Below, in pieces: positions 43,049-61,350 of a stretch of DNA of 64,000 nt. The stretch is from Candidatus Gastranaerophilales bacterium (GTDB taxonomy: Bacteria > Cyanobacteriota > Vampirovibrionia > Gastranaerophilales > Gastranaerophilaceae), in NCBI GenBank assembly GCA_947625305.1, contig CANQNW010000003.1, forward strand, positions 62,001 through 126,000, written 5' to 3'. Within the stretch, counting starts at the first letter, position 1, and each line of letters starts with the position of its first letter. A program made the position numbers and the translations under genes. The notes under the pieces were generated by a model that did not search any database, was not told the origin of the DNA, and saw only the letters and a program-made list of their open reading frames with translations.

Positions 43049-43056
43049 TTTGCACC

Positions 43057-43066
43057 GGGGGGGGGG
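43057..43066 (+). repeat. Run of ten G
   Basis: G10 in intergenic DNA, inside a sequence (TTTGCACC, G10, TAAAAGCAAG) that parallels the G-run promoters at 44066 and 59651 but lacks their TATAAT box. It is probably a decayed or recombined copy of that promoter joined to the short repeat at 43072. Confidence 0.8.
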
Positions 43067-43071
43067 TAAAA

Positions 43072-43190: not shown

Positions 43191-43685
43191 TTATTCTTTT
43201 GTGTCGTCTTTCATTTTGAAAGTCCAAACCATATCAAATCTCGGTTTATCTCCTGTCGGGGATAATTTTGCAACTTCTCCTACCTTATCGCCGTTATTAT
43301 CAACCAAGTCAAAAATGTTGTTAGAGTTATTCCCGTTATTTTTTATGTAGTATGTTCGTGGAAAATCTACAGGCAAGTTACCGGAATTATTTAAAATATC
43401 GTCTGTATCATCTCGCATAGGCTGAGTATAGGTAATTGCGAAATAAGGTTTATCATCTCCCATGCCTTCAATAGCTCCGACGTCATAGTGCCTGTTTGGG
43501 TCTAAGTTATTAAATTCCACTTGCCCATCTGTGCCTTTTTTAAACCCCGTGACTTGCGTACCTGTTTCAGAGTCAAAAAGCCCATATGCTCTTTGGGCAC
43601 AAGCACCATTTATTTCAATTTTTCTCGGGTTAGGAGTTAAAACAACCTGTTCAGGTGTTTTGTTTATAAATTTATTTTCATTCAT
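43191..43685 (-). CDS. Family A accessory protein, copy 1
   Basis: Protein of 164 residues, no signal peptide or membrane segment, function unknown. It belongs to a four-member paralog set in this window (also 44874, 45382, 60856). Conserved blocks: QVVLTPNPRKIEI, AQRAYGLFDSETGTQVTGFKKGTDGQVEFNNLDPNRHYDVGAIEGMGD, NSGNLPV, IFDLVDNNGDKVGEVAKL and TFKMKDDTKE. The motif GD-x-KP-x(4-7)-W/Y-T-x2-M-x-DDT occurs twice, so the protein appears to be two related units of about 70-80 residues. The start has AAAGGAC upstream. It is followed upstream on the same strand by the XRE gene at 43772, as in the mirrored copy. Confidence 0.7.
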   Translation of the reverse strand: MNENKFINKTPEQVVLTPNPRKIEINGACAQRAYGLFDSETGTQVTGFKKGTDGQVEFNNLDPNRHYDVGAIEGMGDDKPYFAITYTQPMRDDTDDILNNSGNLPVDFPRTYYIKNNGNNSNNIFDLVDNNGDKVGEVAKLSPTGDKPRFDMVWTFKMKDDTKE

Positions 43686-44065: not shown

Positions 44066-44096
44066 TTGCTTCGGGGGGGGGTAAAAGTGGTATAAT
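44066..44096 (+). promoter_or_regulatory. G-run promoter, left copy (candidate phase-variable switch)
   Basis: TTGCTT (44066-44071), a 19-bp spacer containing nine G (44073-44081) and an extended -10 TGG-TATAAT (TATAAT at 44091-44096). The spacer is two bases longer than the 17-bp optimum, so loss or gain of G by slippage should alter strength. The same layout with the same spacer length is found on the minus strand at 59651-59681. It drives the broken Kelch gene starting at 44126. Confidence 0.75.
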
Positions 44097-44125: not shown

Positions 44126-44744
44126 ATGAGTAATGATAAAGAGAATATAGAACAAGAAAAAGTTAATAAACAAAGTTGGTGGAAGAAGTTGTTGGGTTTA
44201 AAGCAAATATCATGTCAAATATTGTTAATATTGGCTTTTATATGTCATAATAATATTTTTTGAATATTTAAAAGGTTCATACGGTTCAGAAGCCGTAGTT
44301 CTAAATGAAAATGAAATATTTTTACCATCACATTTCGATGAAGTTTTAAACCTAAAAACAGGTTTACATGATCAAATTCCAATTCCCGCACAAATTTATG
44401 ATATAAAAAAAAGAAAATTTAAACCATCTGATGAAGGAAATGCAGAAATATATGACCAAAAAACAAATTCTTATACTTCTGTAGGTTCTTTGAATGTAAA
44501 AAGATGCTATCATTCATCAATATTACTTTCAAATGGGAAAGTATTAATTGTTAATGGAGCAAAAGGACCCGGTGGAGCAACTGATAGAGAAACAAGAAAA
44601 GCAGAGTTGTTTGATCCCGAAACTAATAAATTTGAATTAATATCATCAACTAAACTTGAAAGATGGGCATTCTTTGTAGAGAAAATTTCAGATAATAAAA
44701 TACTAATTCATAATTACAATGGATGGGAAATTTATAAATATTAA
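44126..44744 (+). pseudogene. Kelch-like membrane-anchored protein, frameshifted
   Basis: The first frame gives a 45-residue product: MSNDKENIEQEKVNKQSWWKKLL, then a membrane segment ISCQILLILAFICHNN. It stops with TGA at 44261. The next frame continues without a gap as EYLKGSYGSEAVVLNENEIFLP and so on to 44744. It includes a Kelch-type unit (YHSSILLSNGKVLIVNGAKG, AELFDPETNKFELIS). Removing one T from the T6 run at 44256-44261 joins the frames into one reading frame of about 205 residues. It may be a pseudogene or a slippage-controlled gene. RBS AGGTGG precedes the ATG. It is a relative of the genes at 55908, 57047 and 58352. Confidence 0.75.
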
Positions 44745-44873: not shown

Positions 44874-45362
44874 TTATTTCTTTGTGTCATCTTTCATTTT
44901 GAAAGACCAAATATAATGGATTTTAGGTTTATCGCCTGTCGAGGTTAGGTTTGCAATTTCCCCAACTTTTTCGCCTTTAGAATCTACCATATCCAATACA
45001 TTGTTATTGCCGTTATCTTTTATGAAGTAGACATTAGGATATTCTACAGGCAAGTTCCCTGAATTTTTTAGTATTTCATCTGTGTCATCTTTCATACGTA
45101 CAGTCCAAATTAATGCAAATTGAGGTTTTTCATCACCCATACCTTCTATGGCTCCGACGTCATAGTGTCTGCTTGGGTCTAAGCCGCTAAATTCCACTTG
45201 CCCCTCTGTGCCTTTTTTAAAATCATTGACTTGTGTTCCTGTTGCAGAGTCAAAAAGCCCGTATGCTCTTGCTGGATGTGCACTATTTATTCTGATTGTT
45301 CTTGGGGTAGGGGTTACAACAACTTGTTCTTGCGGTTGATTTAAAGAAGTATTTTGTTCCAT
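44874..45362 (-). CDS. Family A accessory protein, copy 2
   Basis: Protein of 162 residues, closely related to the copies at 43191 and 60856. The two units are clearest here: the first ends GDEKPQFALIWTVRMKDDTDE and the second ends GDKPKIHYIWSFKMKDDTKK. The segment before each (YGLFDSATGTQV... and YFIKDNGNNNVLDMVDSKGEKV) also aligns loosely. No signal peptide, no known domain. It is 19 bp downstream of the short paralog at 45382 on the same strand, so they form an operon. The start has AAAGGAC upstream. Confidence 0.7.
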   Translation of the reverse strand: MEQNTSLNQPQEQVVVTPTPRTIRINSAHPARAYGLFDSATGTQVNDFKKGTEGQVEFSGLDPSRHYDVGAIEGMGDEKPQFALIWTVRMKDDTDEILKNSGNLPVEYPNVYFIKDNGNNNVLDMVDSKGEKVGEIANLTSTGDKPKIHYIWSFKMKDDTKK

Positions 45363-46632: not shown

Positions 46633-46672
46633 TTGCCTCGGGTGGGGGTGGGGAGGGTAAAAACGGTATAAT
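46633..46672 (+). promoter_or_regulatory. Interrupted G-rich promoter, third copy
   Basis: TTGCCT (46633-46638), a 28-bp spacer of G runs broken by T and A (GGGTGGGGGTGGGGAGGG), then TAAAAACGG and TATAAT (46667-46672). Flanks match the promoter at 44066 (TAAATTTGC before, ATTTTG and a GTTTAG-like RBS region after). The interruptions would stop slippage and the 28-bp spacer should be inactive, so this copy may be locked off. The four G runs also fit an intramolecular quadruplex. Confidence 0.6.
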
Positions 46673-46676
46673 TATT

Positions 46677-46948
46677 TTGGTTGCAAGTTTAGATGATTTT
46701 ATCAGTGAAGATGAAATACATAAAATAATTGAATTTAATTTGACGGAGAGTTTATATTACAGGTTTGCAGTAATAACTTTTGCAATTTGGCTTGCTATTG
46801 AAAGTATTTGTGCTTTTTTAAATTCAGGGGGGGGGGATCTAAATACGGTTATGCAGTTGCAGTTAACGGACTATTATGTTTAATTAATTGCATTAAAGCT
46901 TTGCTTTGTTATAAAATTATGAGAAAAGTAAACAGGTATTCTCCTTAA
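46677..46948 (+). pseudogene. Small membrane protein with a G10 run inside the coding sequence
   Basis: In the present sequence the frame is open from TTG 46677 to a stop at 46883 (68 residues): DDFISEDEIHKIIEFNLTESL, a membrane helix FAVITFAIWLAIESICAFL, then NSGGGDLNTVM. The helix is followed by G10 (46827-46836). With 8 or 11 G the frame would instead continue as GSKYGYAVAVNGLLCLINCIKALLCYKIMRKVNRYSP to a stop at 46948, adding a second helix and a basic end. That frame looks more like a real protein. The start is uncertain; no good RBS is seen. It may be phase-variable or simply broken. Confidence 0.5.
46881..46920 (+). repeat. 40-bp direct repeat, left copy
   Basis: TAATTAATTGCATTAAAGCT and the following 20 bases recur at 48232-48271 with about five changes. 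The two copies bracket the SGNH-like gene at 46999. The left copy encodes part of the alternative C-terminus of the membrane protein at 46677. Confidence 0.7.
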
Positions 46949-46998
46949 TATTAAAGAAAAATATCTATAAGCTTAAATTTTTGAGGTCTATAAAAAAT

Positions 46999-48138: not shown

Positions 48139-48231
48139 AACATTTTTAAGCTTTTGTGTGAAATATCCGATTTCCCTAACCCAACATCAAAGCTGTATAA
48201 ATTTTTTTATCAATATTTAATTTTTTACATC

Positions 48232-48271
48232 TGATTAATTGCATTAAAGCTTTACCTTGTTATAGAATTAT
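48232..48271 (+). repeat. 40-bp direct repeat, right copy
   Basis: Second copy of the 46881-46920 repeat (GATTAATTGCATTAAAGCTT and following bases), just upstream of the HIT gene. Confidence 0.7.
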
Positions 48272-48293
48272 TAAAAAAGGTTATGAGGTAATT

Positions 48294-48626
48294 ATGTCAG
48301 ATTGTATTTTTTGCAAAATCGCAAACGGTGAAATCCCTTCCGATTTTATTTACGAAGATGAAAAGGTTGTTGCTTTTAATGATTTAAACCCGCAAGCACC
48401 CGTTCATTTTCTGGTTATTCCCAGAAAGCACTATGTTTCGTTAAATGATATAGATTCAAAAGAGGCATTTGCGGATATTTTTTCTGCCATTCCTAAAATT
48501 ACAGCAAAACTCGGTATAAAAGAGTATAGAACGGTTGTAAATACGGGTGAAAGCGCAGGGCAGACCGTTTTCCATATCCATGTCCACGTTATGGCAGGCA
48601 GAAAGTTTAATTGGCCCGCAGGTTAA
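48294..48626 (+). CDS. HIT-family nucleotide hydrolase (HinT-like)
   Basis: Purine nucleoside phosphoramidase-type protein of 110 residues. CIFCKIANGEIPSDFIYEDEKVVAFNDLNPQAPVHFLVIPRKHY is the family start, and the histidine triad is HIHVHVM with GESAGQTVFH before it. It is a housekeeping gene marking the return to core genome. The gene at 48630 follows by 3 bp. Confidence 0.93.
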   Translation: MSDCIFCKIANGEIPSDFIYEDEKVVAFNDLNPQAPVHFLVIPRKHYVSLNDIDSKEAFADIFSAIPKITAKLGIKEYRTVVNTGESAGQTVFHIHVHVMAGRKFNWPAG

Positions 48627-48629
48627 GTT

Positions 48630-48953
48630 ATGTATAACCGTTGGTATGATAGTTATCCCGAATTAAAATCATTGCTTCAGCTTTTAGAAAAGGTTGATTC
48701 ACAATATCTTGATGTTATTGCGCAGGATTTTCTTCAAATAATTTTGGATAAATACTCTGACAGGTTTGATGATGCCATTAGGCAGATGAGCGAAAATGCT
48801 CCGCCCCGTTATTTAAGGTGGTATGATGAAAATTACGACCTTCATACCTGTATTGAATTTATTAAAACTCTGAACGATAATGAAAAGGAAGATTTAATTA
48901 AATCTTTCATAATGTCACTTGTAAGCTTTATAACGAATGTAGATGATGAATAA
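48630..48953 (+). CDS. Conserved-looking small protein of unknown function
   Basis: Protein of 107 residues, acidic and helical, no signal peptide: MYNRWYDSYPELKSLLQLLEKVD, then RYLRWYDENYDLHTCIEFIKTLNDNEKEDLI. The tight packing (3 bp after the HIT gene, 11-bp overlap with the SDR gene) shows that it is a real gene of the operon. No family recognised. Confidence 0.75.
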   Translation: MYNRWYDSYPELKSLLQLLEKVDSQYLDVIAQDFLQIILDKYSDRFDDAIRQMSENAPPRYLRWYDENYDLHTCIEFIKTLNDNEKEDLIKSFIMSLVSFITNVDDE

Positions 48954-49671
48954 AAAAAATATATTAATTACAGGCTCATCAAGAGGTATAGGTCTTGAAA
49001 TCGCAAGGCATTTTGCTTTAGATTATAATGTTTTTATAACGGGCAGAGATGAACAAAAACTTGAAATGCTTGCTAAACAATACGGATTTAAAGGGTATTA
49101 TCCTTGTGATTTATCTTTGACGGATGGGGCTGAAAATCTTATATCGGGCTTAAATACGGATTTTGATATCTTAATAAATAATGCAGGTATGTATATTTAT
49201 AATCCGATTGAAAAAATGTCACCCATAGAAACCGTAAATTCAATGGTTTTGAACTCTTTAACTCCTTATGAATTAATAAAACGGGTTGTGCCTTATATGA
49301 AAAAGCAAAAATGGGGCAGGATAATTAATATAGGCTCAATTTCAGGTGTTATGGGCGAAGCGAATGCTTCTATATATTCTATGACAAAGGCATCTTTAAT
49401 CGGATTAACAAAATCGCTTGCGCTTGAACTTGCACAAGATGATATTACCGTTAATATAATTAATCCGGGATGGGTGGATACGGAATTAATCAATAATGAC
49501 AACCTTGAAGATGATTTTTCAAAAGACGAAATTATGGAAACCATTCCTCAGCGAAGGTTTGTAACTCCCGATGAAATAGCTTCCGCTTGCGAATTTTTAA
49601 TATCCGATAAAGCAAAAACTATAACGGGGCAATCCATAAACATTTGTGCGGGATTATCTTTAGGCTGTTAA
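48943..49671 (+). CDS. Short-chain dehydrogenase/reductase
   Basis: NAD(P)-dependent oxidoreductase of 242 residues. The cofactor loop is ITGSSRGIGLEIA, then INNAG, the catalytic serine in NIGSISGVMG, and Y-x3-K in YSMTKASLIGLTKSLALELA. It is similar in length and layout to FabG, but the N-terminal region and lack of fab neighbours leave the substrate open. It is the last gene of the HIT operon and is convergent with tolC. Confidence 0.88.
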   Translation: MMNKKNILITGSSRGIGLEIARHFALDYNVFITGRDEQKLEMLAKQYGFKGYYPCDLSLTDGAENLISGLNTDFDILINNAGMYIYNPIEKMSPIETVNSMVLNSLTPYELIKRVVPYMKKQKWGRIINIGSISGVMGEANASIYSMTKASLIGLTKSLALELAQDDITVNIINPGWVDTELINNDNLEDDFSKDEIMETIPQRRFVTPDEIASACEFLISDKAKTITGQSINICAGLSLGC

Positions 49672-49678
49672 AGATTTT

Positions 49679-51058
49679 TTAAAGATTTTCTTCCGCTTTA
49701 TATAAATCAACACCGCCTGCCGCTTTATACAGCCCTATCGTTGATATTATTAAATTGATTTTATTTGAAACTTCTTCTTTTTGAGTTAATAAATATGCCT
49801 CTTTTGCATAGAGAGTGTCAATATCGGCAGAAGCCCCGATTTCATTTTTTTCTTTTGCAAGAGAGTATATTTTTGTTTGGGTTTTTAGCCTGTTTGTACT
49901 TTCATTATAGTTATCGTTTGCGGTTTTATATTCTAAAAGCCCCGAATTAACTTCTTTTACACCTTCCAAAATTGTTTTTTGATAATCGTTTAAAGCTTCT
50001 TCATACTGAATTTTTTTAAGTTTTAAAAAAGCCGTTTTTCTTCCGCCCGAAAATAAATCCATCGAAGGAAGAACACCTAGATTTAAGAATTGAGAAGCTC
50101 CATGAAACAGTTCATTTAAGTGATATGCATTTAATCCGACCTGACCGACTATGGTAAACTTAGGCAGAAATTCCCTTTTCGCCGCTTTTACATCAAATCC
50201 TATTCTTTTGATGTTAGCTTCCTGCTGTTTAAAATCAGGTCTGTTGGATATAACGGCGGAAGAGTATTCCTTTGGCAAATCATTTAAAACGGTTACTTTG
50301 TCATAGCTGTTATACTTGATTTCATCTTCATTATCGGCAAGATAAACTTTTAAACTTTCTTTCAGCAGATTTTTGGTTAAATCGTGTTTATTTTTTTCTT
50401 CTTTTAAACTTGTAAGATATTTTTCTTCCGCAAGCACTTCGTTAATTGTGCAAAGTCCTGTTTCATACTTATCCTGCGTCATTGAAAGGATTTTTTCCTG
50501 AGTTTTAATTAACTCCTCTTGAATTTGAGATAATTTATCCGCCTTAATCAAATTAAAATAATCGGAAGCAAAATCAGAGGTTAAAGAAATATAAGTCGCT
50601 CTTTGCGCCTGTTTAACCATTTCCAGCTGTTGTTCCATGCTTTTTGTTTTAAATCTGTTTAATCCCCAAATATCTATTTCATACCCCGCAGTTAAAGGTA
50701 AAAGATAGTTATATTGAGAATATTTAGGGATTTGCATATCGCCGAACTGCTGGCGGGGTGCTTGTAAATCTCTGTTTAAATCACCCGAAAATCCGACAAA
50801 TGGCAGTTCATTTGCAAATTGCATTTTTACAAGTTTTTCATTTTCCTGAATTTTTAATGCCGTATTTTTAAGGTCATAATTATTTTTATAAACTGTAATT
50901 AAATTATCTTTTAAATACTCGTCTTTATAGTTATCCCACCATTTAATATTCAGGTATTCTATAGTTTTTTCGCCGTTTGGAATTTCCTTTTTCGCTATGG
51001 ACGGCAGGCATATTGAAAAAACAATAAATAGTATTATACAAAATTTTCTCATATTCAT
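49679..51058 (-). CDS. TolC-family outer membrane efflux protein
   Basis: Outer-membrane channel of 459 residues with a signal peptide (MNMRKFCIILFIVFSICLPSIAKK). The two-fold repeated coiled-coil pattern of the family is visible: ALKIQENEKLVKMQFANELP, GLNRFKTKSMEQQLEMVKQAQRATYISLTSDFASDYFNLIK, then VISNRPDFKQQEANIKRIGFDVKAAKREFLPKFTI. It is divergent from emrA-emrB with 59 bp between, and together they form a complete tripartite pump. Presence of TolC implies an outer membrane. Confidence 0.88.
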   Translation of the reverse strand: MNMRKFCIILFIVFSICLPSIAKKEIPNGEKTIEYLNIKWWDNYKDEYLKDNLITVYKNNYDLKNTALKIQENEKLVKMQFANELPFVGFSGDLNRDLQAPRQQFGDMQIPKYSQYNYLLPLTAGYEIDIWGLNRFKTKSMEQQLEMVKQAQRATYISLTSDFASDYFNLIKADKLSQIQEELIKTQEKILSMTQDKYETGLCTINEVLAEEKYLTSLKEEKNKHDLTKNLLKESLKVYLADNEDEIKYNSYDKVTVLNDLPKEYSSAVISNRPDFKQQEANIKRIGFDVKAAKREFLPKFTIVGQVGLNAYHLNELFHGASQFLNLGVLPSMDLFSGGRKTAFLKLKKIQYEEALNDYQKTILEGVKEVNSGLLEYKTANDNYNESTNRLKTQTKIYSLAKEKNEIGASADIDTLYAKEAYLLTQKEEVSNKINLIISTIGLYKAAGGVDLYKAEENL

Positions 51059-51073
51059 ATTCCCAAGAATTTC

Positions 51074-51097
51074 CTTGTGCTATAATTTAAGCACAAG
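51074..51097. promoter_or_regulatory. Palindrome over a -10 box in the tolC/emrA divergent promoter
   Basis: CTTGTGC (51074-51080), a 10-bp spacer beginning TATAAT (51081-51086), and GCACAAG (51091-51097) form a perfect 7-bp inverted repeat. A repressor bound here would cover the emrA -10. No regulator gene is adjacent. Confidence 0.6.
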
Positions 51098-51117
51098 AAT
51101 ATTTTATATTAAAAAAA

Positions 51118-52098
51118 ATGGAACACAAAATAACCGAATCATTAATAAGCGAGGAAGATAAAAGACACATTTACGAAAAAAAACGTGTAATTGTGCCTGC
51201 AATTACCGCACTTGTCATATTGGTATTGGGAATTATTATTTCCATAAACTCTGTATTTTACAAGTCAACTGATGACGCATTTGTGGAAGGGCATATAGTT
51301 ACCGTTGCACCGAGGGTATTCGGGCCTGTTATTAAGCTGAATGTTGAAGATAATCAGATTGTTAAAAAAGGCGACTTACTTTTGGAAATTGATTCTAAAG
51401 ACTACGAAGCAAAATTAAAACAATCGCAGGCTAAACTGGAGGAGGCTAAAGCAAGTCTTATAAGTGCCGATAACGATGTTATTAAAACATTGTCGGAATT
51501 GGAATTTGCTCAAAACGAATATGACAGATATTCTAAAATGCACGCAAAAGGAATTACTTCAACTCAGGATTATGAAGCAAGCCAAACAAAATTAACTCAG
51601 GCAAAATCAAACAACAGCAGTGCAAAAGCAAAATATGACGAAATAACTGCTTCAATTAAAAAACTGGAAGCGGAAGTTGAACAGGATGAATTAAATCTTT
51701 CTTATACTAAAATATATGCGGTTCAAGACGGCAAAGTAACACATAGAACAGTTGAAGAAGGCAATTACGTTCAAATTGCACAGCCTTTATTTGCCATAGC
51801 ACAGGATGATGTTTGGGTCGTAGCTAATTTTAAAGAAACTCAAATAGCTAACATGAAAAAGGGGCAAAAAGTAAAAATTAAAATTGATGCCTATGGTAAT
51901 AAGAAATTTAACGGTGTGGTAGACAGTCTGCAAATGGCATCTGGCGCTAAGGCAAGCCTTTTTCCGCCTGAAAATGCTGTCGGAAGCTACGTTAAGATTG
52001 TTCAAAGAATCCCCGTTAAAATCTTGTTTACAGATGATATCTCGGGGTATAACATAATCCCCGGCATGAGTGCAGTTCCTACCGTAAAGGTAAAATAA
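51118..52098 (+). CDS. EmrA/HlyD-type periplasmic adaptor
   Basis: Membrane-fusion protein of 326 residues linking the inner-membrane pump to TolC. One membrane helix (about 24-46), then TDDAFVEGHIVTVAPRVFGPVIKLNVEDNQIVKKGDLLLEID, the biotinyl-lipoyl-like half. A coiled-coil hairpin (about 98-195) follows, then YTKIYAVQDGKVTHRTVEEGNYV and a beta-barrel with WVVANFKETQIANMKKGQKVKIKIDAY. The pattern matches EmrA. It is 1 bp from emrB. Confidence 0.9.
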   Translation: MEHKITESLISEEDKRHIYEKKRVIVPAITALVILVLGIIISINSVFYKSTDDAFVEGHIVTVAPRVFGPVIKLNVEDNQIVKKGDLLLEIDSKDYEAKLKQSQAKLEEAKASLISADNDVIKTLSELEFAQNEYDRYSKMHAKGITSTQDYEASQTKLTQAKSNNSSAKAKYDEITASIKKLEAEVEQDELNLSYTKIYAVQDGKVTHRTVEEGNYVQIAQPLFAIAQDDVWVVANFKETQIANMKKGQKVKIKIDAYGNKKFNGVVDSLQMASGAKASLFPPENAVGSYVKIVQRIPVKILFTDDISGYNIIPGMSAVPTVKVK

Positions 52099-52099
52099 A

Positions 52100-53632
52100 A
52101 TGGCTCAGGAGTTGCAGTATAATAAAGTTCCGATTTGGTTAATTGCAATATCAATATTAATGCCTACATCATTTGCCGCCTTGGCAACTACGGCAACAAA
52201 TGTGGCTATTCCTCATATATCAGGATATTTTGCGGCAACAGCAGACGAATCAAAATGGATAGTAACCTCTTATATGGTTGCAAATGCCTGCATGATAATG
52301 CTTACAGGATGGCTTGAGCATGTTTTGGGACGCAAACAGCTTATAAAAGTTTGTATTTTTATATTTACTTTGGGCGCTTTAATCTGTACGATTGCTCCCT
52401 CATTAAATATAATGGTGATTGGAAGGTTAATCCAGGGAATTGGCGGAGGCCCTATGACACCGATATCTCAAACAGTGCTACTATCGGCATTTCCTGAAGA
52501 TAAAAAAGGTGTTGCGATGTCGCTTTTTGGTCTGGCGGTTATGGTTTGCGCCATATTAGGGCCGTCCTTCGGCGGATTTTTGGTTGATAACTTTAACTGG
52601 CATTACATTTATTCCGTTAATATTCCTGTCGGAATAGTTTCATATATGCTTATTTGTAAGAATATTGAAAATACCGAGCCTTCAAAAGAGAAAAAACATG
52701 TTGATTTTATCGGAATGAGCGCATTAATTATCTGGCTTTTATCTATGCAGATAGTTCTTGATAAAGGTCAGCAGTATAATTGGTTTGATTCTGCGTGGAT
52801 TTCGTGGCTTAGCGGATTTTCGCTTGTTGTATTGTCTTTTCTTGTTATTTGGGAAATTGAAAATAAAAATTCGTTTATTAATTTAAGGTTATTTAAAGAC
52901 AGAAATTTTTTAATCGGAACTATAATTTCAACGGCGGTAAGTATGGTTGTATTTACAACAATGTATCTTGCGCCTCAGTTTTTACAGAATGTATTAGGAT
53001 ATACGGCACTTTTAAGCGGATATACAATGGCACCCAGAGTTATATCCTGTTTAGTTATGCTTGCCGTTATTCCTAAATTAATGAAGCTTTATGACAGCAG
53101 AATATTAATTGCAATAGGGTTTTTCTTCTTAGGACTTGCAACTTTTGTATATACCAATGTTAATTTGGCGGTTTCATTTTTGTATGTATCAATACCAAAT
53201 GTTTTATTAGGTATCGGAGTAATTTTAACCTTTATTCCGATATCGGCATTAGCATTAGGGACTTTACCGAAGGAACAGCTTGCAAACGGTGCCAGTCTGC
53301 ATAATTTTTGTAAGACCGTAGGTGTTGCTGTAATTGTTTCAATGTCATCAACACTTGTTGCAAGGCACTCTCAAATTCATCAGGGATATCTGGTTGATAA
53401 TCTTTCTAATTTTAACTTGGTATTTCAAAATAAAATGGCGGGTTGGACAAGCACATTTATTCAGGGAGCATCCTATGCATTTGCCGTAAATAAGGCAAAT
53501 GCCTATGCTTATAAACAAATGATTGCGCAATCCACATTATTTGCTTATGTTGATACCTTCGCAATAGTTGCAATGCTAGCATTCATTCTAATCCCCGCTG
53601 CATTTTTTATGAAAATAAAAAAGAATAACTAA
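52100..53632 (+). CDS. EmrB/QacA-type drug:proton antiporter (DHA2)
   Basis: Major facilitator with 14 predicted helices, 510 residues. Motifs: TTATNVAIPHISG at helix 1, DESKWIVTSYMVANACMIMLTGWLEHVLGRKQL (motif A loop), GRLIQGIGGGPMTPISQTVL (motif B/C region) and AILGPSFGGFLVDNFNWHYIYSVNIPVG (motif C of drug exporters). Substrates are not predictable. The stop lies inside the 64-bp direct repeat at 53631, so the accessory region begins exactly at the gene's end. Confidence 0.92.
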   Translation: MAQELQYNKVPIWLIAISILMPTSFAALATTATNVAIPHISGYFAATADESKWIVTSYMVANACMIMLTGWLEHVLGRKQLIKVCIFIFTLGALICTIAPSLNIMVIGRLIQGIGGGPMTPISQTVLLSAFPEDKKGVAMSLFGLAVMVCAILGPSFGGFLVDNFNWHYIYSVNIPVGIVSYMLICKNIENTEPSKEKKHVDFIGMSALIIWLLSMQIVLDKGQQYNWFDSAWISWLSGFSLVVLSFLVIWEIENKNSFINLRLFKDRNFLIGTIISTAVSMVVFTTMYLAPQFLQNVLGYTALLSGYTMAPRVISCLVMLAVIPKLMKLYDSRILIAIGFFFLGLATFVYTNVNLAVSFLYVSIPNVLLGIGVILTFIPISALALGTLPKEQLANGASLHNFCKTVGVAVIVSMSSTLVARHSQIHQGYLVDNLSNFNLVFQNKMAGWTSTFIQGASYAFAVNKANAYAYKQMIAQSTLFAYVDTFAIVAMLAFILIPAAFFMKIKKNN

Positions 53633-53694
53633 TTACAATAAGATGTAATTAGTTTTTGATTAATTTACAATTATTTACATATACCTGAAATCAT
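53631..53694 (+). repeat. 64-bp direct repeat, left copy
   Basis: Starts with AATTACA-ATAAGA-TGTAATT (a hairpin) and runs to GAAATCAT. It matches 55842-55905 at all but about seven positions. The pair brackets the toxin-like gene, its membrane neighbour and the gene at 55243. Between this repeat and the start codon at 53900 there is only AT-rich DNA with no feature I can name. Confidence 0.8.
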
Positions 53695-53899
53695 GTATTC
53701 ATCATGTTTTCGGCTGTATTTGAAATTGAGTAAAATAATATTTTTATTCGATACATCTTGAAATGTTATGAAAAAGATTTATACTGAAAATATAAAGAAA
53801 CAACAAGTTAGATAAACTATTAATAATAAAATGGGGATTAGGTAAGATTATTATTAGTTAATTCGCTGTAGAAAAATAAATTAAGGAAGGGAATTGGTT

Positions 53900-53944
53900 A
53901 TGGCTGTTTGGAATGAGGCAGAACACCCAGCGGATTTTGCGTAG
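53900..53944 (+). pseudogene. Detached 5' end of the toxin-like gene
   Basis: ATG with AAGGAAGGG upstream, encoding MAVWNEAEHPADFA and then TAG. The stop lies inside the inserted element at 53930. The peptide NEAEHP continues naturally into D-S-D-D-E-G-K-F-T-Y-K of the downstream frame once about 109 bp is removed. This restores the HP-(R)D-x-(2-4)-GKFT pattern common in phage and effector proteins. Confidence 0.65.
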
Positions 53945-54043
53945 AGTGGAGCGGAGCGAAACTTGAAGAAGTGAATGCCCGGAATGAGCAGACACGGCAG
54001 TGTGGCGAATGACAGGGCAGAGAGTAAGCAAAATCCAAGACAG
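53930..54043 (+). mobile_element. Small palindromic insertion element with inverted-repeat arms
   Basis: Arms GGATTTTGC (53932-53940) and GCAAAATCC (54028-54036), followed by AAGACAG (54037-54043). The interior is GC-rich and purine-biased. The module at 28856-28953 has the same plan, read on the minus strand: GGTTTTTACGTAGAG, a purine-rich interior, GAGTAAAAACC, AAGACAG. No coding capacity; this fits a MITE or REP-like element moved in trans. Confidence 0.75.
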
Positions 54044-54752
54044 TGATGATGAGGGAAAATTTACTTATAAAAACGGGGGAAGTTCTAATTCAAATCCTCT
54101 GCTTTTGGGCGGGGTTCAATATAACGAAAAAAAAGAAAACAGAGAAGATATTCTCTATAATGATAATTCTTTTAAAGATAATCTATCAAATTATAGAAAC
54201 AAATTACTTGATTTCTTAGGAGATAATTTAGAAAGAGAAGAAATATTATACTCAAATATATCAGAATTGGAAAATAAAATAATTCAAGTTACAGTAAATA
54301 AAATAGATGATTTGAAAGAAAAACTAAATAATATTATAAGAAAATTAAGTCATCCTGGAATGATTTATTCTAATCAATCTCAAAAAGTGCTAAATGAAGC
54401 TCAAAAATGGAATAATGCACTTGGAGATTTTGCAAGAAATTATGAGGATATGATAGATGCTAATACAATAGGTGGAGATAAGTATTTACATGCAAAAGCA
54501 AATTGTCAGGCAGCTCAACGAGGTCGTAATGGAGAAATTATTTCTTATGTTTTAAGTACCTATAGGGAATTGGAAGAAGGAACAAGAAAAGTAGTATTTA
54601 GAGGAGAAAATTTGTTTGAACAGCTACAAGATGCAAGAGAAGATATTCAAGCTAACAATGAAGGAAGAAATTTAGGGAAACTAAATCCGAATATTAATTG
54701 TAAATATTTATTGAACGATAGACGTCCAAATGGTCTTGACGACAAATATTAG
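54000..54752 (+). CDS. Toxin-like protein with an Rhs-type C-terminal domain, 5' end displaced
   Basis: About 240 residues of continuous frame; the GTG at 54000 lies inside the inserted element, so the original start was probably 53900. After a GKFTYKNGG segment comes a helical, lysine- and glutamate-rich middle. The C-terminal domain has IGGDKYLHAKANCQAAQRG, STYRELEEGTRK and QDAREDIQANNEGRNLG. The pattern DKY-H-x-A-x-C-x(5)-G ... D-x(2)-AN-x(2)-GR-x2-G recalls a domain I know from the ends of Rhs and wall-associated proteins, but I cannot name it with certainty. The next gene could be its immunity protein. Confidence 0.55.
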   Translation: MWRMTGQRVSKIQDSDDEGKFTYKNGGSSNSNPLLLGGVQYNEKKENREDILYNDNSFKDNLSNYRNKLLDFLGDNLEREEILYSNISELENKIIQVTVNKIDDLKEKLNNIIRKLSHPGMIYSNQSQKVLNEAQKWNNALGDFARNYEDMIDANTIGGDKYLHAKANCQAAQRGRNGEIISYVLSTYRELEEGTRKVVFRGENLFEQLQDAREDIQANNEGRNLGKLNPNINCKYLLNDRRPNGLDDKY

Positions 54753-54766
54753 GGTAAAATACATAT

Positions 54767-55171
54767 ATGAATAAAATTAAATTAATAATTAAAACTATAA
54801 TTGCAATAATATTTGTACTTTATATCATTTATTTAAATCTGATTATTTCAACAGAAACTTCAGAACAAAACAAGTTAATATTATATAGTATTATTTCTAT
54901 TATATTTACACTTTTTATTTTATATTATACGTTTATAAAAAAAGCAGAAATATTTAAAGTATTAATTATAATATTTTGTTACTTGATTATTTTTAATAAT
55001 ATTCCGATTTTTAATAATATTTTTGACAAAGATTTTTGCCTTGATAATTCTATATGCCGAGAAGGTCTTAAAGTTAATACAAAATACGGAATAATTAAAA
55101 TTAATGAAGAAAATTGTTTAAAATATAATTGGAATTGGGATAAAAAATCAAAAATATGTACTATTAAATAA
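54767..55171 (+). CDS. Small membrane protein, candidate immunity protein
   Basis: Protein of 134 residues with three membrane segments (about 8-27, 38-56, 64-83) and a cysteine-bearing C-terminal domain (FCLDNSICREGLKVNTKYGIIKINEENCLKYNWNWDKKSKIC). It begins 14 bp after the toxin-like gene on the same strand, with very AT-rich codon use. Position and topology fit an immunity protein. No homology to a known one is seen, so this is an inference from context. Confidence 0.6.
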   Translation: MNKIKLIIKTIIAIIFVLYIIYLNLIISTETSEQNKLILYSIISIIFTLFILYYTFIKKAEIFKVLIIIFCYLIIFNNIPIFNNIFDKDFCLDNSICREGLKVNTKYGIIKINEENCLKYNWNWDKKSKICTIK

Positions 55172-55242
55172 TAATAAGATGTCCTACTCGCTGACGATCC
55201 TGCAAAATTTATAAATGATTTGAGATATTAAATATAATTTTT

Positions 55243-55752
55243 TTATTCTTCTGTATCAGAGATTTTTACATTTTTTAAATAGTTTTTAATTATTTTTCTT
55301 TGATATTCAGTATAATCATCTACTTCATTAATTTTTTTCAGGTCTATTTTGTTAGTAATTAAATAAGGATATACGTATTCAAGTAAATCAATATAAAAAT
55401 CTGTTGCTAAATCAGATTCTTTTTTAGTGTATTTTTCGGTTATTTCAACTAATCTTAAATAATAATAAAATAAAGGTGAGTATATATAATCATCTGGAAT
55501 TGAAACTAAATCAATAAGTTCATCTCTTGTAAAACTTGAAGGATTATTTTTATATTTTTCAACGTTAATTTTTACATCTTCAACAATTTCATCAATTTCT
55601 TTTTTTGTTTTCGGAGCTTCATTTTCAATTACTTTTTGGATTTCAATTTTGTATTGTCTTGGAAGTTTATATTTATCATCTTTCTTGAAAAACAAAAAAG
55701 ACAAGGCAATAAGTAAAACAATAAGGAATAATATTATAAATTTTTTAATCAT
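55243..55752 (-). CDS. Membrane-anchored protein of unknown function
   Basis: About 169 residues from the ATG at 55752, which has AGGTG upstream; a GTG two codons earlier is less likely. An N-terminal anchor (FIILFLIVLLIALSFLFF) is followed by a charged helical domain: YKIEIQKVIENEAPKTKKEIDEIVEDVKINVEKYKNNPSSFTRDELIDL, then YYLRLVEITEKYTKKESDLATDFYIDLLEYVYPYL. No family recognised. It lies inside the segment bracketed by 64-bp direct repeats, opposite in strand to the toxin-like pair. Confidence 0.65.
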   Translation of the reverse strand: MIKKFIILFLIVLLIALSFLFFKKDDKYKLPRQYKIEIQKVIENEAPKTKKEIDEIVEDVKINVEKYKNNPSSFTRDELIDLVSIPDDYIYSPLFYYYLRLVEITEKYTKKESDLATDFYIDLLEYVYPYLITNKIDLKKINEVDDYTEYQRKIIKNYLKNVKISDTEE

Positions 55753-55841
55753 AAACACCTATAAATTAATATATAAATAAGAGCATAAAATATGGTTTTT
55801 GGCAATACAGAAATATTTAACAGTTGGTTAATACCTGTTTG

Positions 55842-55905
55842 AATTACAATAAGATGTAATTAATTTTGGATTAATTTACAATTATTTGCATTTTTCTGAA
55901 ATCAT
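55842..55905 (+). repeat. 64-bp direct repeat, right copy
   Basis: Second copy of the 53631-53694 repeat, ending 3 bp before the stop of the Kelch-like gene at 55908. The AATTACA/TGTAATT hairpin could also act as a terminator for that minus-strand gene. Confidence 0.8.
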
Positions 55906-55907
55906 AA

Positions 55908-56966
55908 TTATTTACTCCTATAATTTTTTTTATAAATATATATGTATGCACGGTTTGAAGAGTCAGTTGGTCCATTAATTCTTTTAACTAATGGAACATC
56001 CTTTGGATCTGCATTATGAAAACTTGGATAAATTGAAGTACTTCCACCAACTATCAAAACCATATTTTTATTTGGAATTTTAATATAATTAGGTAAATAT
56101 GAACGAACAAATTCATTTAAAGGCTTTAATTCTTTAGTTTCTACATCATATTCATATAACGGGCTAAACCAACTCGGATACCTATTAGTATGTATAACCG
56201 ATTCAACACTTACTCCATAATCAACTTCATCTCTTTTAACAACTATTTTTTTCTTAAACTCATCTTTCTCATTCAACATTTTGTAATTTATATTGTCTAT
56301 AAAAGGAATATTTTTATATGAAATATTTTGTTTTTCTGCTTTTTCTTTTATCGTCTTATATTCTATTGAATCTGAACTGTATGCATCTGAAATGTTTTTA
56401 GTCTTTAAATTATATTTATACATTGTATTAGAAGTGCAAAATATATTGATATCATCACCTTGTTTATATATTTGGTAACAATTTTTATCCAAATAAAAGT
56501 CTAAATCTTCACTATTCTTGGAAGCAAGATTATATTTAAATAAATATTGCTCTTCTTTTTTAAGTATGTCTCTGGCTAAAACATAAAGATTATCCCCATC
56601 GGATATAATATCTCTAACACCATAAGCTTTTTCAATTAAGTGTTTTTTAAGTTCCGGTAATTTTGAGAACTTAAATGTTTTTAAATCTAAAATATCGATA
56701 TGCCGTGAGTTTGAATAATTTGTAGTAAAAAATATTATTTTGGAATTATCAATAAAGTGCCCGGCAACTCCTGAATCATAGCAATGATTCATATCTTGTA
56801 ATCTATACAATCCCGGTTTTTGATTTGGATTTTTGGGATTAAATTTAGGTACAACACCCGCAAAACATATATTATTTGAAATCAAAATAAGAATAAAAAT
56901 GGAAAGAATAGTTTTAACAAAACCGTTTATTTTATCATATATTTTCTTATTTTTTTTGTTACTCAT
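55908..56966 (-). CDS. Kelch-like secreted protein, copy 1
   Basis: About 352 residues. The ATG at 56966 is used because AGGA lies 8 bases upstream; a TTG two codons earlier is too close. N-terminus MSNKKNKKI, then a long hydrophobic signal (TILSIFILILISNNICFAG). The body has repeated beta-propeller-like units: IDILDLKTFKFSKLPEL, LYVLARDILKKEEQYLFKYNLASKNS, TMYKYNLKTKNIS, LYEYDVETKELKPLNEF, MVLIVGGSTSIYP. It is the most diverged of the three Kelch-like genes here. Predicted surface or periplasmic; ligand unknown. Confidence 0.68.
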   Translation of the reverse strand: MSNKKNKKIYDKINGFVKTILSIFILILISNNICFAGVVPKFNPKNPNQKPGLYRLQDMNHCYDSGVAGHFIDNSKIIFFTTNYSNSRHIDILDLKTFKFSKLPELKKHLIEKAYGVRDIISDGDNLYVLARDILKKEEQYLFKYNLASKNSEDLDFYLDKNCYQIYKQGDDINIFCTSNTMYKYNLKTKNISDAYSSDSIEYKTIKEKAEKQNISYKNIPFIDNINYKMLNEKDEFKKKIVVKRDEVDYGVSVESVIHTNRYPSWFSPLYEYDVETKELKPLNEFVRSYLPNYIKIPNKNMVLIVGGSTSIYPSFHNADPKDVPLVKRINGPTDSSNRAYIYIYKKNYRSK

Positions 56967-57008
56967 AATCAAATTCCTATCTTTTTTCTTTTGTTACTTT
57001 TGTTGTTT

Positions 57009-57046: not shown

Positions 57047-58258
57047 TTAAAAATAATATCTATAAGATTTATTACTATGTACCATTCTTTCTGAACCTCC
57101 GTAATACAAAATACTACCGTCTTCTAACAAAACAGGATTTAAACTGTTCAGTCCGATTTTTTCAAATCCGTTTAATTTTTGCATTTTATATGTTTTATAG
57201 TCAAAATATGCACCACCTGTAAAAAATATTCCTTTATTATCAATAAATAAAGGAATGGTCATAAAACCCACACCTCTGTCAAGATACCCGATGATTTCAG
57301 ATTTTCCTGTCGTAATATTATATTTTTCAACCGATTTAATTACTGTTTCCGGAGTAAAACCACTGCCATAGCCATATCTAATTCCGCCGATAACTATTAC
57401 ATTATTTTTATCAAGTTTATGTGCATATATTTTATCAAACCTTGACTCAACTAATTGTCCGACAATTTTAAAATTATTTAATTCACGATTATATTCAAAA
57501 ACGTAGTTAAATTCATCTTTTTTCCCGTCTTTATCGCCTAATCCCATACCGAATATTAAAATATTTCCGTCTTCTTTTTCAATCAATCCTACTTTGTCAC
57601 TTTTTGTATCTATACATGAAGAATGTGCACAACTTAATCTATATGATAAAGTTTTATCTACCATCTTAATTGGTTCCGATAATTTGTAGTTTTTTGTATC
57701 AAAAATATAAAATTCCTTTTCTTTTCCACAGGAATAAATAAAAATATTTCCATCCTTTAGTTTTATTGAATTAGCATAATGGAATGGTTTTTGTCCTTTT
57801 TTTTCAAAATTATATCGTTCCAATACTGTTTGTATTGTCTTGTTCTTTAGATTATATATTTGAAACATATTTAATATGTTCACTTGAGGATCTAAGATCT
57901 TTGGAGTTATTATTAGCATATTTCCGTCGTCTAATCTATAAATCTGTTTTGCATCCATGTATATATTTAAAGGCGATATGGATTTGAATTTATTTGTCTT
58001 TGTATCGAATATTTCACCATGATTACTTGCCAATAAAACATTTCCATCCGGTAATATACCGTTTGCAATTGTTTGAAAGAAATATCCGGTAGAATTACCG
58101 ACTCTGTATAAACCTTGTTTTTGATTTTTAACTATTTTCCCCTGTTGTAATTTCATATCTTCTGCAATTGAAATACTGAATTTCCCACTTATAAATAAAA
58201 AACTGACTATCAATAATCCGATAAATATGTTTTTTAAATTTATTTTTTTTATACTCAT
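57047..58258 (-). CDS. Kelch-like secreted protein, copy 2
   Basis: About 403 residues from the ATG at 58258 (AGGA 8 bases upstream). Signal: MSIKKINLKNIFIGLLIVSFLFISG. Repeats of the Kelch/galactose-oxidase type are plain: GILPDGNVLLASNHGEIFDTKTNKF, IKLKDGNIFIYSCGKEKEFYIFDTKNYKL, IEKEDGNILIFGMGLGDKDG, KNNVIVIGGIRYGYG, LLEDGSILYYGG. The leader DNA (GATAGGAATTTGATTATGAG) is shared with copy 1. Predicted beta-propeller at the cell surface or in the periplasm. Confidence 0.75.
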   Translation of the reverse strand: MSIKKINLKNIFIGLLIVSFLFISGKFSISIAEDMKLQQGKIVKNQKQGLYRVGNSTGYFFQTIANGILPDGNVLLASNHGEIFDTKTNKFKSISPLNIYMDAKQIYRLDDGNMLIITPKILDPQVNILNMFQIYNLKNKTIQTVLERYNFEKKGQKPFHYANSIKLKDGNIFIYSCGKEKEFYIFDTKNYKLSEPIKMVDKTLSYRLSCAHSSCIDTKSDKVGLIEKEDGNILIFGMGLGDKDGKKDEFNYVFEYNRELNNFKIVGQLVESRFDKIYAHKLDKNNVIVIGGIRYGYGSGFTPETVIKSVEKYNITTGKSEIIGYLDRGVGFMTIPLFIDNKGIFFTGGAYFDYKTYKMQKLNGFEKIGLNSLNPVLLEDGSILYYGGSERMVHSNKSYRYYF

Positions 58259-58299
58259 AATCAAATTCCTATCTTTCTTCTTTTGTTACTTTTATTGTT

Positions 58300-58351: not shown

Positions 58352-59542
58352 TTAAAACTGTAATCTATATGCATATTCACTAAAATTAGATAATGAATGT
58401 TTTTTATATTGTGAACCACAAAGTATTAAAATACTGTTATCTTCTAATTTAATAAATCTATATGGCAAATATAATGGAATTTTATTATTAATAATATATG
58501 ATTGATTTGTCTTAATATTGAATACTTCTATTGCACTATAATCTTCATTGTATCCTTCCCATCTTACAGTACCAATTATTATATTTTCATTATTAAGTTC
58601 AATATTATAACTTGGATTTGTATTTGTTAATGTACAAATAATTTGTGAAGTATTAGTTCTAACATTATATTTTTCTATTGTTTTTACGGGATTATTATTT
58701 TTATTTAAACCACCCCAAACAAGAATATTTTCACTATCAATTTTTTTTGCTTGAACTTTATCTACTCTCCCATTTTTAAGATTACCAATATATGAAAATT
58801 TATTTGCATTAATATTAAATTTATATATTCTACTAAAATCAATTCCCGAGTTATTATTAATATTTTTTTGATTGCGATTTCTAGTTCCATTGCCAAATAT
58901 AAGGATATCTCCATCTTCAAGTTCGATTAAAGCACGATTTTTACCATTTTTTACTATATCATCACAAAACTCAAGTTTATAAAACTCCATTTTATCAGGA
59001 TAAAATCTATAACTCTTGTATTCATCAACAATTAATACACTTCCATCTTTCAATTTTTTCATTGATACATTATGTCCAAAATTGGTAGGAGCATTTTCAA
59101 TCTTGTTAAAAGTCTCAGTTTTATAATTATAAATAGTTGGAGTACAGCGATAACCGCCTACTAAAAATACATCACCATTATTTAAAATAACCGATGCATG
59201 ATTTTGCATATCATTCATTAATACTCTTTGTCCACCAACTTCCCCATATTTAATATTACCTTTTGGCTCTCGAAATGTATTGGTTTTAGGGTTATAAATT
59301 TCCCCAAATACATAAGGCTCTTGTTGAATTCCTCCAGTAATTAATACTTCTCCAGTAGGTAATAGAATTCCATTTTGTTCTTGTCTCGGTTTTAATACTT
59401 TTAATTTTGTTATTTTAATATTTCTAAATCCATTTTCTATTGCAAAAGTATCATTTAAACTTGTAATTAAAAAAAATAAACAAATTATAAATAAACATAT
59501 AAATATTTTTTTTAAATTTATTATTTTGTTACTCATCATCAT
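58352..59542 (-). CDS. Kelch-like secreted protein, copy 3
   Basis: Protein of 396 residues. Its start (ATGATGATGAGTAAC) overlaps the TAA of a 26-residue leader ORF as TAATG, so translation is coupled. Signal: MSNKIINLKKIFICLFIICLFFLITSL. Repeats: GILLPTGEVLITGGIQQEPYVFGEIYNPKTNTF, HASVILNNGDVFLVGGYRCTPTIYNYKTETFNKI, MKKLKDGSVLIVDEY, IELEDGDILIFGNGTRNR, NILVWGGLNKNNNPVKTIEKYNVRTN, IKLEDNSILILCG. Six or seven blades are likely. It is controlled by the minus-strand G-run promoter at 59651. Confidence 0.78.
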   Translation of the reverse strand: MMMSNKIINLKKIFICLFIICLFFLITSLNDTFAIENGFRNIKITKLKVLKPRQEQNGILLPTGEVLITGGIQQEPYVFGEIYNPKTNTFREPKGNIKYGEVGGQRVLMNDMQNHASVILNNGDVFLVGGYRCTPTIYNYKTETFNKIENAPTNFGHNVSMKKLKDGSVLIVDEYKSYRFYPDKMEFYKLEFCDDIVKNGKNRALIELEDGDILIFGNGTRNRNQKNINNNSGIDFSRIYKFNINANKFSYIGNLKNGRVDKVQAKKIDSENILVWGGLNKNNNPVKTIEKYNVRTNTSQIICTLTNTNPSYNIELNNENIIIGTVRWEGYNEDYSAIEVFNIKTNQSYIINNKIPLYLPYRFIKLEDNSILILCGSQYKKHSLSNFSEYAYRLQF

Positions 59543-59622
59543 TAATCCCTATCTTTTTTCAACAAATTTAACCAACTTTTATTTTTCTTTTCTTGTTCTA
59601 TATTCTCTTTATCATTACTCAT
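59542..59622 (-). CDS. 26-residue leader ORF, coupled to Kelch-like copy 3
   Basis: ATG at 59622 with CAGGTG upstream, encoding MSNDKENIEQEKKNKSWLNLLKKDRD. The first twelve residues equal those of the Kelch pseudogene at 44126, where they lead into a membrane segment. Here the frame ends after 26 codons and the true Kelch gene starts in the TAATG overlap. It is either a leader peptide or the remnant of a gene fused by deletion to the Kelch gene. Confidence 0.6.
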   Translation of the reverse strand: MSNDKENIEQEKKNKSWLNLLKKDRD

Positions 59623-59650: not shown

Positions 59651-59681
59651 ATTATACCACTTTTACCCCCCCCCAGCGCAA
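59651..59681 (-). promoter_or_regulatory. G-run promoter, right copy (candidate phase-variable switch)
   Basis: On the minus strand: TTGCGC (59681-59676), a 19-bp spacer with nine G (59674-59666), extended -10 TGG-TATAAT (59656-59651). Spacer length, G number and flanking TAAAAGTGG equal those of the left copy at 44066, while the -35 half has diverged by a T-rich insertion upstream. It points to the leader ORF and Kelch-like copy 3. Confidence 0.75.
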
Positions 59682-59754: not shown

Positions 59755-59982
59755 ATGGCTATGTTAAATAAGAATGCTAAAAAGAAATTACTTGGCACCA
59801 ATATTGCCAAATACAGAAAACAAAAAAATCTTTCTCAAAATCAGCTTGCAGAATTGGTTGATGTTTCAAGAGAACATATTGCTAAAGTTGAAACCGCAAG
59901 AAGAAATATGAGTATGGATTTATTATTCAATATTTCTTCCGCACTCAATATACCCGAATATAAATTTTTCATTTTTAAATAA
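59755..59982 (+). CDS. XRE-family regulator, right copy
   Basis: 75 residues, identical to the gene at 43772 except N for D in SSALNIP and a final K. It is in inverted orientation relative to that copy and divergent from the G-run promoter at 59651. The intergenic DNA also matches (TAGTTCACAATATGGCTATG and the GACTACATACAAATATAAC stretch, with an AACT-AAAA-AGTT-type palindrome that could be its operator). Downstream, a toxin-antitoxin pair separates it from its family A gene. Confidence 0.88.
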   Translation: MAMLNKNAKKKLLGTNIAKYRKQKNLSQNQLAELVDVSREHIAKVETARRNMSMDLLFNISSALNIPEYKFFIFK

Positions 59983-60855: not shown

Positions 60856-61350
60856 ATGAACGAAAATAAATTATTAAATGACTACACTGAACAAGTTGTT
60901 TTAACTCCCAACCCGAGAAAAATTGGAATAACTCATGCTTATGCCCAAAGAGCATACGGACTTTTTGATTCAGAGACAGGCACACAAGTTACAGGGTTTA
61001 AAAAAGGCACAGATGGGCAAGTTGAATTTAATAACTTAGACCCAAACAGGCACTATGACGTTGGTGCTATAGAAGGTATGGGAGATGAAAAACCTGTATT
61101 TGCAATAAATTGGACTGAAAATATGATAGATGATACAGACACTATATTAAAAAATTCAGGCAACCTGCCTGTTATATATCCGGCTACATATACAATAAAA
61201 GATAATGGCAGCAATTCCAACAACATTTTTGACTTGGTTGATGATAATGGCGATAAAGTAGGAGAAGTTGCAAAATTAGCACCAACCGGCGATAAACTGC
61301 AAATCAATTTTATATGCTCTTTCAAAATGAAAGACGATACACAAAAATAA
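60856..61350 (+). CDS. Family A accessory protein, copy 3
   Basis: 164 residues, very close to the copy at 43191: QVVLTPNPRKIGITHAYAQRAYGLFDSETGTQVTGFKKGTDGQVEFNNLDPNRHYDVGAIEGMGDEKP, then KNSGNLPVIYP, NIFDLVDDNGDKVGEVAKLAPTGDK and CSFKMKDDTQK. The upstream DNA (ATTTGAAATAATAAAATAAAGTTAAC, then AAAGGAC) is also shared with that copy. It is in mirrored orientation. Function unknown. Confidence 0.7.
   Translation: MNENKLLNDYTEQVVLTPNPRKIGITHAYAQRAYGLFDSETGTQVTGFKKGTDGQVEFNNLDPNRHYDVGAIEGMGDEKPVFAINWTENMIDDTDTILKNSGNLPVIYPATYTIKDNGSNSNNIFDLVDDNGDKVGEVAKLAPTGDKLQINFICSFKMKDDTQK

Follow-up and report, generated by a model that had tools for sequence, protein, structure and literature searches.

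The window, by which we mean the whole 64,000-nucleotide stretch of Candidatus Gastranaerophilales DNA analyzed here, carries on its minus strand a promoter-like element with a run of guanines between a -35-like box and a -10 box (Table 1). Read directly from 59681 to 59651, this core has the layout TTGCGC-T-G9-TAAAAGTGG-TATAAT, giving a spacer of 1 + 9 + 9 = 19 nt; the TGGTATAAT within it is also compatible with an extended -10. The core faces an intact gene whose product matched Pfam Kelch_6 (9.7e-15). The predicted structure of this protein was a propeller (pLDDT 79, pTM 0.80), and the model matched solved PDB Kelch domains (E 2.6e-13); with a predicted N-terminal membrane helix, the product may be exposed on the cell surface. 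Two further array genes follow, and the counterpart of the third in another genome, G045, sits directly behind a G-tract core of its own. Runs of eight G are much more frequent in this DNA than chance predicts, with 10 overlapping matches in the 64-kb window against a shuffled mean of 0.34. The sequence GGGGGGTAAAA occurred 14 times in the genome, and the reversed pattern did not occur in it.

Table 1. Coordinates of the promoter cores, related tracts and neighbouring genes in the window.
Feature	Position	Strand	Description	Evidence
Minus-strand promoter core	59651..59681	-	TTGCGC (-35-like) 59676-59681; T 59675; G9 (GGGGGGGGG) 59666-59674; TAAAAGTGG 59657-59665; TATAAT 59651-59656	Sequence, pattern search, genus-wide conservation
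Sister promoter core	44066..44096	+	Spacer 19; TTGCTT 44066-44071; C 44072; G9 44073-44081; TAAAAGTGG 44082-44090; TATAAT 44091-44096	Sequence, pattern search, alignment
Decayed copy	46633..46672	+	TTGCCT, interrupted tract GGGTGGGGGTGGGGAGGG, TAAAAACGG, TATAAT	
Empty-site-like joint	43050..43071	+	TTGCAC-C-G10-TAAAA joined to Kelch 3' flank	
Leader ORF	59542..59622	-	26 aa, MSNDKENIEQEK...; stop overlaps Kelch start codon	
Kelch gene faced by the core	58352..59542	-	Kelch beta-propeller protein, N-terminal membrane/signal helix	
Second array gene	57047..58264	-	Weak Kelch match; own intergenic repeat; without G-tract promoter	
Third array gene	55908..56972	-		97.6% to G045:C6:103932-105002
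Kelch gene remnant behind sister core	44490..44744	+	84 aa	Kelch_6 2.3e-05
Divergent Xre-type helix-turn-helix (HTH) gene	59755..59982	+	Duplicated beside sister core	Pfam HTH_3 1.5e-13, alignment

The sequence-only reading had proposed that the minus-strand element is a real promoter with a G tract in its -35/-10 spacer and the same geometry as the sister core. Direct reading confirmed this architecture, as both cores have a spacer of 19, nine G and the same TAAAAGTGG before TATAAT. The two had also been regarded as independent copies, which did not survive alignment: they are paralogues, oppositely oriented and 91% identical across 418 bp, and the duplicated segments span the divergent HTH gene, the promoter and the leader. 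By this alignment, the pair in the window represents a single inverted duplication. Nor does their shared tract length, offered as support for function, carry much weight, because G9 is the commonest length among the 71 genome tracts of at least 8 G (G8, 6; G9, 40; G10, 20; G11, 5), so that two tracts would agree in length about 41% of the time by chance. Each copy had further been said to drive a Kelch gene; an intact Kelch gene does face the minus-strand core, whereas the sister faces only a remnant. The inference of function nevertheless holds, because the core is present in 50 copies in 15 genomes, with a conserved -35 position, a variable tract length and genome-wide poly-G loci of the contingency type.

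The concern that the second copy is an assembly duplicate of the first was also addressed. Homopolymer counts in an assembly can be off by one, and the long stretch of identity between the two copies might suggest a single locus represented twice. However, the copies diverge at about 9%, with many differing positions, and differ in flanks, upstream spacing and downstream genes, so they are not an assembly duplicate; moreover, the same core was found in many separately assembled genomes. An assembly or sequencing artefact is therefore extremely improbable, and is already refuted as far as the existence of the tract is concerned.

A search of the genus with GGGTARAANNGGTATAAT returned 50 sites in 15 of 41 genomes and none for the reversed pattern. 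The tract was interrupted in four of these copies, and in the 46 intact ones it was G8 (n=4), G9 (n=27), G10 (n=12) or G11 (n=3). Among the intact copies, TTGC precedes the tract at a constant distance (97, 93, 89 and 86% at the four positions), and TATAAT, the block after it and a start codon about 28 nt further on are conserved. TTG(C/T) is kept directly before the tract although the sequences upstream are mostly unrelated. Two features speak against a sigma-70-type promoter of this design: the spacer is 19–20 nt in most copies, above the usual optimum, and the -35 box matches the consensus at three to four positions only. In most copies the gene faced by the core encodes a protein with a membrane or signal helix at its N-terminus, often with Kelch motifs, and the N-terminus of the leader is fused in frame to many of these downstream proteins at other core copies. 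As judged from these alignments, the core and the short block after it form a near-identical cassette that precedes many genes for secreted or membrane proteins. The idea that the divergent HTH gene belongs to a common switch was abandoned, since the upstream sequence is unrelated at most copies. When genome contigs were searched with a 17-base pattern, which is too loose for specificity, a long tract was present, among the matches listed, in Gastranaerophilales records only (L022, L115 and L128), and none of the 28 pattern matches in viral contigs had a tract of at least 5 G. These matching contigs suggest that the genus belongs to Candidatus Gastranaerophilales. Separately, the sequence after TATAAT in the intact copies (n=46) has the consensus TTGTTTACAA, a short palindrome close to where transcription is expected to begin and perhaps an operator.

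Tract length was compared in ten pairs of copies with homologous downstream genes, leaving out a tandem duplicate, repeats of that duplicate and the decayed window copy. It differed in eight of the ten, including one interrupted to G5; as the pairs come from different species, this shows mutability over evolution and not switching in a clone. The closest pair, with flanks 91 and 97% identical, had G8 and G9. Homopolymers in such a position are familiar from the vlp genes of Mycoplasma hyorhinis, in which one lies in the promoter spacer before each member of a surface-protein family; there, however, the tract is poly-A and the genes form one clustered family encoding lipoproteins. The porA promoter of Neisseria meningitidis has a poly-G of 9–11 between -35 and -10, where 11G gives high expression and 9G a 13-fold lower level on the surface (PMC3639595). 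In Treponema pallidum, poly-G tracts occur in the promoters of several membrane-protein genes; expression of tp0126 is best at a 17-nt spacer, and tprE/G/J need 8 or fewer G (PMC7864442). As in the porA/tp0126 type, the tract described here lies between -35 and -10 and its length differs between near-identical copies, in this case between species, and by layout the core would work like these promoters. In porA, tract length sets the expression of a surface protein, but porA is one gene with no cassette reuse, whereas here many gene families share one core. The tpr tracts occupy a different part of the promoter, and gene exchange at the tract is not mentioned in PMC7864442.

Poly-G promoters in this genome, analyzed from stretches around its tracts, are not confined to the shared core. 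One, TTGACA-A-G10-AATGC-TATAAT, has perfect boxes and a spacer of 16 (G000:C4:162687-162714), and two others, TTTACA-18-TATAAT and TTGATT-18-TATAAT, each have G9 in the spacer; since these lack the shared core, they argue that a spacer G tract was reached more than once. An exact TATAAT was found within 18 nt of tracts, counting both orientations, 22 times against about 5 expected, and the shared core accounts for 6 of the 22. Where tracts fell in long ORFs (longest reading of at least 180 aa), 17 of 33 were in frame and 16 of 33 out of frame. Many of these coding tracts lie in surface-glycan genes, and the Pfam matches of tract-bearing products include glycosyltransferases, capsule synthesis, RgpF, MBOAT, UDP-galactopyranose mutase (GLF), DegT aminotransferase and FkbM methyltransferase. 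Many tracts, surface genes and 17 ON to 16 OFF frames are the features of a multi-locus poly-G phasome of the Campylobacter type, and the best reading of these sequence data is that the core belongs to a large phasome of this kind in Gastranaerophilales. Campylobacter jejuni NCTC11168 has 29 poly-G/C loci of 7 or more (PMC4965091), and, likewise AT-rich and gut-dwelling, it carries many G tracts within surface-glycan genes, some in the ON frame and some in the OFF frame. It belongs to another phylum; the count of tracts of at least 8 is 71 in the present genome and up to 179 in another genome of the same family, and a dedicated promoter cassette is present here.

Within the order, family f1 reaches those 179 tracts per genome, with many genomes carrying tens, compared with 0–15 in the other families; an uncultured gut lineage carries tens of poly-G tracts per genome, and far fewer are present in its order's other families. 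Genomes of family f1 range from 0 to 179 tracts, a pattern of repeated gain and loss. Few loci with coding tracts are common to the window's genome (G000) and G045. The Gastranaerophilales lineage is not known to include pathogens, and this large phasome lies outside the well-known pathogens, in non-photosynthetic gut cyanobacteria. Why genomes rich in phase-variable loci seem to be confined to pathogens is a question raised in a 2025 review (PMC11868660). Our literature search returned no paper joining phase variation to Gastranaerophilales or Vampirovibrionia, and the sole one also naming Melainabacteria was a flagellin survey.

The tract could also be a passive mutational by-product, grown next to T with no regulatory effect, while the extended -10 alone drives the promoter. 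Consistent with this, T-to-G mutation occurs at high rates at GnT sites (PMC12344412), TGGTATAAT would suit an extended -10, and the coding tracts have the same length mode (9). However, 46 of 50 copies retain a tract of 8–11 G, the -35-like motif is kept at its upstream edge despite unrelated flanks, and coding tracts are concentrated in surface-glycan genes and divide evenly between ON and OFF. We therefore regard a passive origin as unlikely. The core is, with good confidence on the sequence comparisons above, a sigma-70-type promoter with a mutable poly-G spacer tract, probably phase-variable by slipped strand, whose reuse as a cassette would let genes be exchanged.

In such a promoter, replication slippage would add or remove one G and, as the spacer equals 10 plus the number of G, change the spacer length; this would raise or lower transcription of the gene for the secreted or membrane Kelch protein. 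The secreted-protein genes can thus probably be switched by one-base slips. If the 17-nt rule applies, G9 (spacer 19) would give a weak or OFF state and activity would rise in shorter tracts, with G7 best. An extended -10 could relax this rule, and TGGTATAAT may carry the promoter in that way. Such a promoter, nearly the same in every copy but with dozens of natural tract lengths, would be convenient material for testing how spacer length sets transcription.

The core also coincides with the ends of homology between loci. Often, two loci are alike in the downstream gene alone or in the upstream sequence alone, with the changeover at the core. Downstream homology begins at -5 to -19, in one case running from -5 for 1.8 kb at 94% identity, upstream homology stops at +19 to +69 (e.g. 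93.5% over 1.37 kb), and one 2.17-kb block has cores at both ends. A homology end fell within -25 to +60 at 26 of 46 cores (57%), compared with a mean of 9.1% and a maximum of 22.5% at 78 shifted control positions. The shared core biases this test to some extent towards a positive result, because it draws any alignment into itself, and for the same reason the homology ends do not fix the exact crossover. The core thus appears, from these alignments, to be a preferred breakpoint where genes are exchanged. New, as far as this comparison goes, are one near-identical promoter cassette serving many secreted-protein genes and its apparent use as a preferred breakpoint for exchange.

The window holds two further tracts of the same origin, one interrupted and one without a -10 (Table 1). 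The latter resembles an empty site: to its left the sequence matches G045 at 99.4% identity, and there the full core is present and followed by a gene. This joint, together with the way homology stops at the core on either side, might indicate that a mobile element or site-specific recombinase has its end or target in the core, with promoter function secondary. However, a non-exhaustive scan of ten ORFs near cores revealed neither a transposase nor a recombinase, block lengths vary, other poly-G-spacer promoters lack the rest of the core, and ordinary homologous recombination over 30–75 shared bases would be enough. A mobile origin is accordingly quite unlikely, and a transposon or insertion-sequence end was rejected for want of a transposase in those ORFs. 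An invertible promoter (inverton) was likewise rejected, as the inverted cores are about 15.5 kb apart, the promoter is not between them and no invertase was seen in the ORFs scanned near the cores. The simplest candidate cause of the exchange is homologous recombination across the repeated core, and the repeated cassette would let genes move between sites by recombination at or near it. It is possible, although we put this forward only tentatively, that the poly-G core serves two purposes, with tract length setting expression and repetition making the core a preferred joint for swapping secreted Kelch-type genes among expression sites, which would couple switching to repertoire shuffling.

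Several smaller observations concern the surroundings of the cores. Between the window's two inverted cores, the block 48219-56914 is inverted relative to G045 C6:103932-110403. The gene downstream of the decayed copy (46640-46960, plus strand) has lost its start ATG, which is changed to ATC, and carries a G10 tract at 46827; the corresponding run in G045 is five G long. An intramolecular G-quadruplex was ruled out at the core, a single run of nine G being insufficient; the interrupted tract GGGTGGGGGTGGGGAGGG at 46640-46657 could form one. A repeated family of about 164 aa (MNENK/MEQN...) lies near many cores (43191-43685 and 44874-45362 on the minus strand, 60856-61350 on the plus strand), and the two copies scanned (43191 and 60856) had no Pfam match. 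Finally, an intergenic repeat, GCAAGTAGGTTGGGTTAGCGGAGTATAACCCAACA, with a short palindrome, recurs behind Kelch genes at about 57034, 58323, 48105 and 43072.
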